Positions 37,986 through 41,857 of a stretch of 64,000 bases of DNA are shown piece by piece. Position 1 is the first letter of the stretch. Every line of letters starts with the position of its first letter. The stretch comes from Algibacter pectinivorans (GTDB lineage Bacteria > Bacteroidota > Bacteroidia > Flavobacteriales > Flavobacteriaceae). The translations under genes were made by a program, and so were the position numbers. The notes under the pieces were generated by a model. That model was not told the origin of the DNA and did no database searches. It saw nothing but the letters and a program-made list of their open reading frames with translations. Where the stretch lies: NCBI RefSeq assembly GCF_900112595.1, contig NZ_FOMI01000001.1:496001-560000 (forward strand), written 5' to 3'.

Positions 37986-38017
37986 ATTGTCCCCTTGAGG
38001 GGACTTTAGGGGTGTTT
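37986..38017 (+). repeat. Left inverted repeat of the DUF559 cassette
   Basis: 32 bp, starting ATTGTCCCCTTGAGGGGAC and ending TTTAGGGGTGTTT; can form a 6-bp hairpin with loop TTGA on its own. Perfectly matched in reverse complement at 38410-38441. Confidence 0.95.
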
Positions 38018-38029
38018 TTAGATAAAAAT

Positions 38030-38404
38030 TTAATCAATTTTCTCACTCAACCTCTTCACAGTCTCTTCAACCACCAACAAAACGCTAAACATATTCTTTT
38101 TTACCTCCTGATTCGAAAACCTTAAAAAAGTAACTTCATAGGCCTCTAATTCAGCTTGTCTTTTAGAATCATATTCAAAAGAATGGTCATGACTTTGTCC
38201 ATCTATTTCTATAGCTAAACCAATTTCATGACAGTAAAAATCAACAATATAGTTTAGCATAGGTACTTGCCTGTGAAATTGAACACCGTAAGCGCATTGT
38301 TTAATGCATTGCCACAATAAAACCTCGGGTAATGTACTGTTTTTTCTTAGCTGTCTTGCCAAAAATTTTAATTCTGGATGGTATGGGATTATTTTGTTTT
38401 TCAT
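38030..38404 (-). CDS. DUF559 endonuclease-domain protein
   Basis: A 124-residue protein of the DUF559 family, which has a restriction-endonuclease-like fold related to very-short-patch-repair nucleases. The characteristic core is FHRQVPMLNYIVDFYCHEIG followed by LAIEIDGQSHDHSFEYD, then the terminal LRFSNQEVKKN. Candidate metal ligands are Asp55, Glu66 and Asp68, with Glu27 earlier; all are present, so it looks intact. Family members are usually annotated as endonucleases without tested function. It is enclosed by perfect inverted repeats, the right one starting 5 bp upstream of the start codon, so promoter and ribosome binding must lie within or overlap that repeat. Confidence 0.9.
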   Translation of the reverse strand: MKNKIIPYHPELKFLARQLRKNSTLPEVLLWQCIKQCAYGVQFHRQVPMLNYIVDFYCHEIGLAIEIDGQSHDHSFEYDSKRQAELEAYEVTFLRFSNQEVKKNMFSVLLVVEETVKRLSEKID

Positions 38405-38409
38405 TATTG

Positions 38410-38441
38410 AAACACCCCTAAAGTCCCCTCAAGGGGACAAT
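38410..38441 (-). repeat. Right inverted repeat of the DUF559 cassette
   Basis: Exact reverse complement of 37986-38017; the tag AAACACCCCTAAAG faces the gene and the hairpin GTCCCC/GGGGAC lies on the outside. Confidence 0.95.
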
Positions 38442-38845
38442 TGTTACGGCATATCTTTACCTGCGATTTTTAGTGTTTATGTGAACTTCATTTTAAACCA
38501 CATTTTATACTACAAACTATAAACCTATACCGCGCCCTTTAAAATATAATCATGCTATATAGGTTTTAAACTATATATTAAGGTTGTTCTAATTTAGTGA
38601 AAATAAAAATGACTTAAAAACACCTCAAACCAATAGTTGTGCTACAACTTAAACTACAACACATAAAAGTTAATTAAAGTGTAACGAAAAACGTAAGTTA
38701 CTAGTCTGATTATTATTTAATGTAAAGCTTATGAGTCTGGATTAGCCCCTTGAGGGTTATCGAAATGAAAATATATTTTTATTGAACATACAGAGCGCAG
38801 CTCATAGGGGTGTTTTTATTGGCAAGCAAACTAAAGCCTAAGCTT
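38442..38845. other. 404-bp stretch without a supported protein gene
   Basis: AT-rich spacer between the DUF559 cassette and a small minus-strand ORF. It holds a 9-bp inverted pair AAACCTATA (38521-38529) / TATAGGTTT (38558-38566) and, at its right end, a degenerate relative of the cassette repeat (38746-38818). I see no ORF with convincing coding character and no tRNA. Confidence 0.6.
38746..38818 (+). repeat. Split, degenerate copy of the DUF559-cassette repeat
   Basis: CCCCTTGAGGG (38746-38756) and TAGGGGTGTTTTTA (38805-38818) reproduce the two conserved blocks of the 32-bp repeat in the same orientation as the left copy, but 48 bp of unrelated sequence replaces the short linker between them. 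Confidence 0.7.
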
Positions 38846-39917: not shown

Positions 39918-41201
39918 ATGTTGAACAAGATGGTTATAAAAGATTGTTATTCGCTCTCCGAAGCTGCTGAATTACTAGGTAAAAGTAAAGAAACTTTAAG
40001 AAGATGGGACAAAGAAGGAAAACTTTGTGCTTTAAGAGAACCTATAAGTGAATATCGCATATATAAAAAAGAAGATATTAATAATCTTATCAAACCGTTG
40101 TTTGAAAATTTTGACGAAGATGTAGACAATTCAGTGAACCCAATTAAAGAATTTAAAGTTTTAGAGCTCTTTGCCGGAGCAGGAGGATTAGCAATTGGAC
40201 TTGAAAAGGCGGGCATTAAATGTGCTGCATTAAACGAAATTGATAAATGGGCGTGCCAAACATTAAGAGAAAACCGCCCTCATTGGAATGTTTTAGAAGG
40301 GGATATTAAATCCTATAATTTTGAAGAATTTAATGGTGAGGTTGATATTGTAACAGGTGGGTTTCCTTGTCAAGCTTTCAGTTATGCAGGAAAGAAATTA
40401 GGATTAGAAGATGCTCGAGGAACTTTGTTTTATGAGTTTGCTCGTGCAGTTAAAGAAGTCAATCCGCCAATTTGTATTGGTGAAAATGTAAAAGGGTTGC
40501 TTTCTCATGAAAAAGGAGAAACTTTAAAAGGCATGTTGTCAATTCTTGATGAAATAGGTTATAGAGTAGTACCTGTTCAGGTTTTAAAAGCTATAAATTA
40601 TAAAGTACCGCAAAAGCGTGAACGAATAATTTTGGTTGGTGTTAGAAAGGATATTGATATTAAATATGAATATCCAAAACCCTATCAAACCATTTACAAT
40701 TTATCAGATGCCTTAAAGAAAGGAAAATTATATAATTCTAATGTTCCTAAATCCGAAGGTTCAAAATATCCAGATCATAAAAAAGAAATTTTAGATTTAG
40801 TTCCGCCAAAAGGATATTGGAGAAATTTACCATTAGATATTCAGAAAGTATACATGGGGAAAAGTTTTTATTTAGGTGGTGGCAAAACAGGAATGGCTAG
40901 ACGAATTGGCTGGGATGAACCTAGTTTAACTTTAACTTGTAGTCCTGCTCAAAAGCAAACGGAGCGTTGCCATCCAGATGAAACTAGGCCTTTTACTGTG
41001 CGAGAGTATGCACGCATCCAAACTTTTCCAGATGAATGGAAGTTTATGGGTTCTGTATCTCAACAATACAAGCAAATAGGGAATGCAGTGCCTTGTAATT
41101 TAGGTAAAGAAATCGGGTATTCTATTATTAGTTTCCTTAATAAATATTACTTGAAATCAAATAAATTAGAGGCTTCAATTTCTCTAGACAAAGCAATATA
41201 G
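39918..41201 (+). CDS. DNA cytosine-5 methyltransferase with N-terminal MerR-like helix-turn-helix
   Basis: A 427-residue type II modification enzyme. Residues 10-55 are a MerR-like DNA-binding domain (YSLSEAAELLGKSKETLRRW). The methyltransferase follows with motif I LELFAGAGG (82-90), motif IV GGFPCQAFS with the catalytic Cys151, motif VI ENVKGL (189-194), motif VIII QKRERI (232-237) and motif X QIGNAVP near 393. All catalytic parts are intact. The N-terminal domain may let it regulate its own expression, as known for some methyltransferases. The 3' end overlaps the convergent putative endonuclease by 55 bp. Target sequence cannot be proven; GGNCC is suggested if the partner is Eco47II-like. 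Confidence 0.95.
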   Translation: MLNKMVIKDCYSLSEAAELLGKSKETLRRWDKEGKLCALREPISEYRIYKKEDINNLIKPLFENFDEDVDNSVNPIKEFKVLELFAGAGGLAIGLEKAGIKCAALNEIDKWACQTLRENRPHWNVLEGDIKSYNFEEFNGEVDIVTGGFPCQAFSYAGKKLGLEDARGTLFYEFARAVKEVNPPICIGENVKGLLSHEKGETLKGMLSILDEIGYRVVPVQVLKAINYKVPQKRERIILVGVRKDIDIKYEYPKPYQTIYNLSDALKKGKLYNSNVPKSEGSKYPDHKKEILDLVPPKGYWRNLPLDIQKVYMGKSFYLGGGKTGMARRIGWDEPSLTLTCSPAQKQTERCHPDETRPFTVREYARIQTFPDEWKFMGSVSQQYKQIGNAVPCNLGKEIGYSIISFLNKYYLKSNKLEASISLDKAI

Positions 41202-41857
41202 CCTTGTTTAAAGAAGTCCTCAGTATCTAGGTTTAAAATCATTAAATCTAGATTTGATACTAATTTATCGTAAAAATTATCAAATCCTGTAATTCTATAC
41301 CAAAATTCTTTTCCTATAATTACAGGGAATTGAGTATCAATTTTCTTATAATGTTGACTCAGTTGAGATTCTTCTCCATAAAGAACTCCTAAAATTAAAT
41401 CTGAGTTATTCATATTCAAAGAATTAGTTCTAGCAAGATTGGTAACAGTTGTAAATTTTTTTAAAAGCGGATTTACGTCTTCTGAATTTATTGTATTTGG
41501 TCCAGATTTTAGCTGACACCATTTTTTTCGATTGTCAACTTTATCTATAAATTCAATATCCATTCCTTTAATTAAAGAACCGTTAGCAAGATTTAATTCA
41601 ACAAACATATTTTGTATTCTTGTCCCAAAGGAAGTATTTATTGAAGTTCCCAATATTCTTGGATAATAGAGTGCCTTAGCAATCCCTAAAGGCGTAAAAT
41701 TATCTTCAAGAATTTTAGAAAGATATTTAACTATAATTGGATTTATCTTATAAGATTTAAGTTTTGAATGAGTTTTTAAAGCATTGATTTTATGGTTTTC
41801 AAAAATCTTTTCCTTAAAATATTCAGTAATAATTTGTAAAAGCTCATTTTCATTCAT
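41147..41857 (-). CDS. Putative type II restriction endonuclease, Eco47II-like
   Basis: A 236-residue protein convergent with the cytosine methyltransferase and overlapping its last 55 bp. The region YYPRILGTSINTSFGTRIQ, then GMDIEFID (98-105) and KKWCQLKSGPNTIN (111-124), resembles the Eco47II/Sau96I group of enzymes that cut GGNCC. Asp100 and the QLK at 115-117 could form a variant PD-(D/E)xK site. The position beside a solitary methyltransferase strongly supports an endonuclease role; the exact specificity is from memory of the family and less certain. No disruption is seen, so the system is probably active. Confidence 0.75.
   Translation of the reverse strand: MNENELLQIITEYFKEKIFENHKINALKTHSKLKSYKINPIIVKYLSKILEDNFTPLGIAKALYYPRILGTSINTSFGTRIQNMFVELNLANGSLIKGMDIEFIDKVDNRKKWCQLKSGPNTINSEDVNPLLKKFTTVTNLARTNSLNMNNSDLILGVLYGEESQLSQHYKKIDTQFPVIIGKEFWYRITGFDNFYDKLVSNLDLMILNLDTEDFFKQGYIALSREIEASNLFDFK

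Follow-up and report, generated by a model that had tools for sequence, protein, structure and literature searches.

Solitary DUF559 genes inside inverted hairpin repeats: candidate nuclease partners of BoxC/PIT-type repeats

DUF559 is a widespread protein domain of uncharacterised function, the known Vsr enzyme acts at T:G mismatches, and the BoxC/PIT repeats of Escherichia coli have been known since the 1990s. YcjD-like proteins were assigned near Vsr within PD-(D/E)XK in 2005 (PMC1189080), and Caulobacter VsrA, which has a DUF559 domain, is treated in its report as a Vsr with a proposed role in mismatch repair and is described as leading to the SOS response in a methylase mutant (PMC12907096). 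BoxC, PIT and TM repeats are reported to adopt an intrastrand purine-motif triplex that is stable in vitro, although footprinting in E. coli cells was unsupportive; in strain MG1655 they are always intergenic and include inverted pairs (PMC4666352). The same report describes BoxC/PIT as blocking DNA polymerase in vitro, TM loci as unstable, and BoxC/PIT as lacking promoter and terminator activity; according to its authors, writing in 2015, mobility genes were never found in the surroundings of TM_ECO (PMC4666352). The literature consulted on BoxC/PIT links no enzyme to these repeats. By title or the start of the abstract, no paper among those listed from the open-access literature, to which the search was confined (subscription papers lying outside it), joins DUF559 with repeats.

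Another described combination of hairpin repeats and an enzyme is the REPtron, which consists of TnpA-REP/RAYT together with GTAG REPs (PMC8266576, PMC3733652). CGTC REPs without a transposase and a GGGGWSAS motif in the terminal inverted repeats (TIRs) of some Y1 genes have also been described (PMC3733652), and the Y1 genes of Bacteroidetes are reported to have atypical structures (PMC6006769).

In this study, we analyzed a 64,000-nt stretch of the Algibacter pectinivorans genome (hereafter, the window), in which a small DUF559 gene is enclosed by a pair of perfect inverted repeats, designated as arms. We found that solitary DUF559 genes are very often located inside inverted copies of a short pyrimidine-loop-purine hairpin repeat. 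In an arm, the hairpin is joined to a G-rich tag by a second loop, which measures about 3 nt or is longer and then often a hairpin. We give an even chance to the reading that BoxC/PIT-type repeats have the solitary DUF559 protein as their dedicated Vsr-like nuclease, in a repeat-plus-nuclease system with a presumed mechanism.

The DUF559 element in the window

The genome is 3.65 Mb in size, and the element is located on its contig 9, with the following features (positions are those of the window).

37986–38017, plus strand: left arm, ATTGTCCCCTTGAGGGGACTTTAGGGGTGTTT; hairpin stem 37989–37994 / 37999–38004; tag directed toward the gene
37990–37995 (TCCCCT), 37998–38003 (AGGGGA) and 38008–38013 (AGGGGT), plus strand: predicted pyrimidine strand, purine strand and third strand of the left-arm candidate triplex
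38030–38404, minus strand: DUF559 gene, 124 aa, small predicted Vsr-like PD-(D/E)XK nuclease (open reading frame, profile and structure model)
38410–38441, minus strand: right arm, 32-nt exact reverse complement of the left arm; tag directed toward the gene
about 38745–38817, plus strand: third arm, degenerate, whose second loop is long; GCCCCTTGAGGG and TAGGGGTGTTT are separated by about 50 nt that include an AT-rich palindrome (by eye, partly in computed searches)

As the preliminary description had it, the arms are exact reverse complements over 32 bp (37986–38017 and 38410–38441), the spacing between arm and gene is 12 nt at the stop side and 5 nt at the start side, and the whole unit spans 456 bp. 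Its account of the arm as a hairpin plus a tag agrees with the folding of the arm as DNA (−5.6 kcal/mol, z −2.3, with a folding tool that covers the hairpin only). The arm pair had an inverted-repeat score of 32, and all 462 control intervals, taken from related loci, stayed below 16; a chance origin of the pair is thus excluded. An Rfam search gave no relevant match.

At up to 3 mismatches, the 27-nt arm core is absent elsewhere in the genome, where the two window arms are its sole copies, and only one full copy of the element (counting near-identical ones) is present. The other two small DUF559 proteins of this genome are 37 and 39% identical to the window protein. A small DUF559 gene at C12:471191–471511 (L003) lies between arms of its own type, AAGGGAAGG ... 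GGAAGGGTT, with a hairpin-capable second loop of 32 nt, and another at C9:596469–596789 (L005) lies between the own-type arms AGAGGGGA/AGGGGTGT and AGGAGGGA/AGGGAGGT. The degenerate long-loop arm at 38745–38817 has matches of 60–73 nt in the congeners G003 and G001 and a shorter match in G007, and it appears to be a member of a separate dispersed family, as these observations suggest. By eye, similar long arms replace the usual upstream arm at two related loci (L046 and L056). Near the element, a cytosine-methyltransferase-like gene (39918–41201, by eye) is overlapped by an opposite-strand gene (41147–41857), which may be its restriction partner.

The window protein matched DUF559 (PF04480) with 96.6 bits (E = 1e-27), above the curated cut-off of 20.6. 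Among NCBIfam models it matched PRK09767, which we take to be the YcjD model, below the cut-off of that model. An AlphaFold2 model based on an alignment of 72 sequences had a mean pLDDT of 90.3. When this model was submitted to Foldseek, the best match was 3hrl (NGO0050, E = 5e-6), annotated just as 'putative endonuclease-like protein', followed by 3r3p, the catalytic domain of the homing endonuclease I-Bth0305I (E = 2.3e-3, and E = 0.0048 by sequence profile); the match to the Vsr structure 1vsr was weak (E = 0.26). In the acidic core, D55 is invariant among the 72 sequences, and E66, D68 and H72 are nearly invariant. Judged from the structure model, the window protein is a one-domain Vsr-like PD-(D/E)XK nuclease with predicted catalysis.

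Arms at related loci and in related genomes

Loci for comparison were selected purely by protein similarity: genome contigs were scanned, and 79 loci were obtained from the best 80 of 563 matches. Flank repeats were testable at 77 of the 79, the flanks of L099 and L105 being too short, and the control consisted of 462 intervals positioned elsewhere in the same loci; an earlier comparison had used three letter shuffles per locus. An inverted-repeat score of at least 13 was found at 53 of the 77 DUF559 loci versus 5 of the 462 control intervals, and a score of at least 16 at 43 of the 77 versus none of the 462. Two loci on the same contigs as G001 and G006 (L044 and L053) were dropped from most analyses and kept in the 77-locus and arm-orientation counts. 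The orientation of the arms was examined at the 79 loci with the 28-nt core of the window arm, allowing 6 mismatches and a distance of 130 nt at most. The tag was directed toward the gene in 26 of the 32 loci having an upstream arm and in 35 of the 36 having a downstream one, as judged from the nearest arm; the remaining loci had no arm on that side. In some clades, the tags are directed outward rather than inward; four Flavobacterium loci (L074, L076, L077 and L085) represent one such clade.

The tags of other clades are GGGGGATGT, GGGGTGTGT and GGGGTGGGT, in addition to AGGGGTGT. Mapped on the protein tree, tag type required 10 changes versus 26.1 in shuffles, with 0 of 200 shuffles that low, for 66 labelled and counted rows out of 76 (L044, L053 and the frameshifted L066 and L102 were excluded; eight outward-tag loci were labelled by hand, and L059 and L061, in which two tag types tied, by list order). 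Tag type therefore tracks the protein tree. Stop codons or frameshifts were observed in the DUF559 relatives at L009, L010, L042, L051, L066, L102, L103 and L105, and these broken relatives suggest turnover through decay.

Similar arms can also accompany DUF559 genes of other phyla. Among 10 plasmid-borne DUF559 loci, the inverted-repeat score was 20 in Deinococcus, 40 in Pseudanabaena, 23 in Sphingomonas and 11 in Picosynechococcus, and the remaining six scored 7–10, which corresponds to background. On the Pseudanabaena plasmid (L335), the gene is enclosed by a perfect 40-nt inverted repeat, more copies of which are present downstream.

The preliminary description had proposed a dispersed repeat family, to be sought in this genome and its relatives. 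The search yielded no further copy in the own genome; in the relatives the copies are abundant, and the proposal was borne out there. An arm model gave matches at E ≤ 0.1 in 71 of 299 genomes of the family, and several relatives have from 10 to at least 25 arm copies, with at most the best 25 candidates scored per genome; in some relatives, arms far outnumber DUF559 genes. The copies are spread genome-wide in G108, G188 and G100 and largely clustered in G184 and G165. In G108, 14 copies have a common 28-nt core with a sharp 3′ edge and AT before the core, and the similarity is weaker farther upstream. Neighbouring arms form doublets with outward tags in 4 of 4 pairs at G188 loci, 4 of 4 at own-genus loci and 28 of 43 at DUF559 loci. 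The spacer of the 28 doublets at DUF559 loci is 84–98 nt in 17 and 11 nt in 4, and a 23–24-nt spacer is alike in G188 and G001 (by eye).

At the level of genomes, a strong DUF559 match (E < 1e-20) was found in 26 of the 33 with strong arms (E < 1e-5) versus 79 of the 266 others (299 genomes, p = 7e-8; the thresholds were set after viewing the lists, and the tally was made by eye). Along with the 53 of 77 loci, these counts bear out the co-occurrence of the repeat with DUF559 that the preliminary description had proposed to look for, which is regular in the relatives. Seven of the 33 arm genomes (G007, G188, G150, G233, G258, G293 and G313) had no strong DUF559 match and also none with the family profile, with which eight genomes were re-searched and two DUF559 genes were found in G249. 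Arms can thus occur in the absence of the enzyme, or the gene was lost later. Of these seven, G188 has 18 arm copies, and the G233 genome is 68% complete.

A Y1 transposase was considered as the true mobiliser and rejected: Y1 matches numbered 69 in 15 of 22 arm-bearing genomes, and no arm was present at any of the 30 loci fetched.

Relation of the tag to the purine strand and to BoxC repeats

An antiparallel purine-motif triplex needs a mirror relation, whereas pairing of the tag with the pyrimidine strand needs a direct repeat. We defined the mirror rule as a third strand that reads the purine strand backwards, with G over G and A or T over A. In the window arm, TCCCCT, AGGGGA and AGGGGT align as six possible triads, and the rule holds at 6 of 6 positions; the predicted triplex is short, its innermost triad leaving a 2-nt loop. 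A pair-change count for the type-A hairpin covered a single pair only.

We compared 138 distinct arms of DUF559 loci, including those from plasmids, E. coli and the own genome. The mean third-strand score was 5.96 for the own arm and 3.11 for shuffled letters, and with swapped tags it was 4.97, the largest of 2000 permutations, which treat related arms as independent, being 5.18. Six hairpins were found in the control intervals of this test, and 5 of the 6 had a mirror score of at least 6 (mean 6.25); the rule is thus not restricted to gene-adjacent copies. These six hairpins may be further arms of arrays.

A second test was based on 20 small DUF559 genes taken from the top Pfam scores and not by similarity to the window protein (frames of less than 180 aa without a stop; own-genome genes and one gene of G085 were excluded) and on 20 DUF559 domains in proteins of more than 1000 aa (the second domain of one G246 region was excluded). 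Pyrimidine-purine hairpins were present on both sides at 17 of 20 small versus 0 of 20 large loci and on one side at 3 versus 2, whereas a plain inverted-repeat score of at least 13 failed to separate the sets (5 of 20 versus 3 of 20). With a short second loop, the only setting in which the large-protein loci were scored, an arm score of 6 was found at 6 of 20 small loci, and on both sides at 1.

When the second loop was allowed to reach 60 nt, a usable hairpin was found on 33 of the 40 sides of the 20 small loci. Of these, 27 had a mirror third strand (p ≤ 0.05), distributed over 19 of the 20 loci, versus 5 with a direct repeat; the shuffles repeat the whole search, with as many as 12 candidate hairpins considered on each side, and the count is 30 of 33 when the choice of hairpin is not repeated. 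Compared side by side over the 33, the mirror was better than the direct repeat on 28, tied on 3 and worse on 2. The same comparison on 18 pairs that had been preselected for matching is not counted as evidence. The mirror rule in the small loci depends on allowing long second loops, and the second loop is often 10–42 nt and can itself be a hairpin. In the own genome, the arms of own type at the three small DUF559 genes fit the rule, as assessed without shuffling.

For the tag, the best interpretation is the third strand in a predicted intrastrand purine triplex, and the mirror rule would offer a simple prediction of the cognate repeat of a DUF559 gene. A REP-like guide tag was rejected, because there is no fixed word across clades and the mirror beats the direct repeat on 27 versus 5 of 33 sides. 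The likeness to REP/RAYT noted in the preliminary description therefore stands for the anatomy, with an unrelated nuclease, and falls for the tag, which mirrors its own purine strand by clade.

In E. coli MG1655, ycjD (1351407–1351760) is annotated as coding for a DUF559 protein, and the repeat adjoining it is TM_ECO no. 9, located at 1,351,239–1,351,204 according to Table 1 of PMC4666352. The window arm, with the stem TCCCCT/AGGGGA, did not fit the TM_ECO consensus CCCTCNCCC... Judged by sequence layout, the window-type repeats probably belong with the BoxC/PIT/TM triplex repeats, and DUF559 at small nuclease genes may be the missing enzyme of the BoxC repeat family.

Places matching a BoxC query were present in 5375 of the 5426 E. 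coli genomes, with a median of 18, and ycjD was detected by megablast in 3365 of the 5426. From 60 records sampled at even steps, 59 chromosomes were counted (one short record was left out), and the number of BoxC-like places per chromosome was 14–31 in the 37 with ycjD versus 2–18 in the 22 without it, by statistics that ignore phylogeny. After one place was subtracted from the ycjD carriers, the difference had a p value of 7e-9, uncorrected for phylogeny. Among the genomes without ycjD, eight had 14–16 BoxC-like places and one had 18. Such high counts are expected if the gene is lost before the repeats decay, and also if the two are independent of each other.

Explanations and comparison with known systems

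If solitary DUF559 proteins are the nucleases of these repeats, the protein would recognize the folded arm cognate to it wherever that strand becomes exposed, as in the lagging strand or in supercoiled or extruded DNA, and would nick or cut at or beside it. Repair of the break would copy arms or doublets to new sites and, occasionally, the gene situated between two doublets. The system would act like a REPtron whose enzyme is unrelated and whose DNA folds differently, and after loss of the gene the arms would persist and then decay. In a wider version, to which we give slightly less than an even chance, DUF559 proteins are dedicated nucleases of triplex repeats (BoxC, PIT and TM) across bacteria: the protein of each clade would read its own third-strand-coded arm, spread singlets and REPIN-like doublets and ride between them, which would make a pan-bacterial selfish system that includes ycjD and BoxC.

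The main rival, which we consider unlikely, is that DUF559 handles the replication or repair trouble caused by triplex-forming repeats and does not spread them, so that many copies are tolerated only with the nuclease and the gene and the repeats are kept together. This caretaker role accounts for the E. coli correlation equally well, since a higher number of BoxC-like places with ycjD fits tolerance as well as spreading. The polymerase block and TM instability described above (PMC4666352), the Vsr-like fold of the DUF559 model and the link between VsrA and the SOS response (PMC12907096) are also consistent with it. However, such a role alone leaves unexplained why the gene is positioned between inverted arms of its own clade type and why a gene-bearing array is present in some genomes and absent in others.

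The presence and absence of such an array were found among the 10 genomes of the own genus (G000–G009). In G006, conserved flanks on either side enclose an arm-spacer-arm-gene-arm-spacer-arm array, and at the same place G003 has a related array that also bears the gene; the DUF559 copy of each array has a stop codon. In G007, G008, G001 and G005, merely 28–32 bp lie between these flanks. The right flank is less conserved in G000, G004, G009 and G002, in which no arm was found in the 150 nt after the left flank and no DUF559 was found there by protein search. The presence/absence is clear, but the junctions of occupied and empty sites are too diverged to read a target-site duplication or the exact end of the unit. 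A single arm of G008 is missing from the same gap in seven aligned congeners (G000, G001, G003, G004, G006, G007 and G009), and the left part of this region was unmatched in G002 and G005. A single arm of G007 was rejected as proof of insertion, as G008 and G003 have decayed remnants at the corresponding place and other sequence is found elsewhere. A stretch of about 95 bp in G006 (L010, 2776–2880, contig C4), separate from the arms, has many matches across the genus. The genus of G114, with one genome, was uninformative.

The element of the window is located downstream of the same neighbouring gene in G001. The sequence past this gene varies between congeners, among which no clean empty site for the element was found, and in G004, the nearest congener, this position is taken by other sequence, by eye a gene. 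The comparison of empty and filled sites suggested in the preliminary description thus succeeded for a gene-bearing array and not for the window element.

That description had also suggested a minimal mobile element, in which the 456-bp unit would move whole, with the arms as terminal inverted repeats and DUF559 as a one-domain transposase or nicking enzyme. The perfect 32-bp ends near the gene, the presence/absence at one locus among congeners, the stop-codon copies in G003 and G006, and the two DUF559 genes with arms located 3.1 kb apart in G304 agree with this proposal. Against it, the own genome has just two arms, few relatives were detected either among viral contigs (7 loci) or among plasmid records (33 of 72,556), and neither a target-site duplication nor a unit end was seen at the diverged junctions. 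Furthermore, the arms within an element were no more alike than those of different elements (19 elements, p = 0.25), which gives no sign of paired arm movement. As the arms also outnumber the genes in several relatives, whole-unit transposition becomes less likely, and we regard it as quite unlikely. Concerted evolution of the two arms was unsupported in the same 19 elements (p = 0.25).

A homing-type process is very improbable in our view. DUF559 would cut gene-less arm or doublet sites, and repair from a gene-bearing array would copy the gene in, with the arms as homology. The second-best structural match to the window protein, the I-Bth0305I catalytic domain, and the frequent location of the gene inside doublet arrays are in line with such a process, but no DNA-binding domain stands beside the nuclease, and gene-less arms are common, so homing would be inefficient. 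That the arms are ordinary signals, terminating transcription in both directions or stabilising mRNA without a particular connection to DUF559, is hardly credible: they are hairpins at gene ends and seem intergenic in relatives (by eye), but they are tied to solitary DUF559 genes, match the clade in type and have a mirror-coded third strand, and BoxC/PIT was reported to be without promoter or terminator activity (PMC4666352).

Linking DUF559 and BoxC gives each of them a partner and makes a role of ycjD in making, keeping or processing BoxC testable. If the protein recognizes the folded arm, three-stranded DNA would be a natural substrate of the DUF559 nuclease family, and systems that pair REP-like repeats with a nuclease would have arisen a second time, independently.

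Among known proteins, Vsr and VsrA have the fold family in common with the window protein, and VsrA has a DUF559 domain; they differ in that Vsr acts at T:G mismatches and in that the main text of the VsrA report contains neither 'inverted repeat' nor 'palindrom' (PMC12907096). The solved structure nearest to the window protein is Neisseria NGO0050 (3hrl), and a DUF559 locus in a Neisseria gonorrhoeae record has a downstream repeat with a 9-triad mirror (by eye).

The REPtron is similar in its hairpin plus tag, in the inverted copies that flank a nuclease gene, in its dispersed singlets and doublets, in clade-matched pairing and in the occurrence of arms without the gene. The dispersed copies and inverted doublets that characterize REPtrons were found in the relatives and not in the own genome. 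The enzymes differ, an HUH Y1 enzyme there and a predicted PD-(D/E)XK Vsr-like nuclease here, as do the tags, which here mirror the stem; the window arm has no GTAG tag. It starts with TGTC, an allowed variant for CGTC REPs, whose stems, however, have an AT start that the arm lacks, and the GGGGWSAS motif of the TIRs at Y1 genes resembles the tag of DUF559 arms (PMC3733652).

BoxC/PIT/TM_ECO repeats have a similar pyrimidine-loop-purine-loop-purine layout with a G-rich mirror third strand, are likewise dispersed and intergenic, form inverted doublets and, in TM_ECO no. 9, adjoin the DUF559 gene ycjD. Their stem is 9 nt versus 6 nt in the window arm, and the letters are different. In addition, no mobility genes are reported near TM_ECO (PMC4666352), whereas the window-type repeats regularly enclose a nuclease gene.
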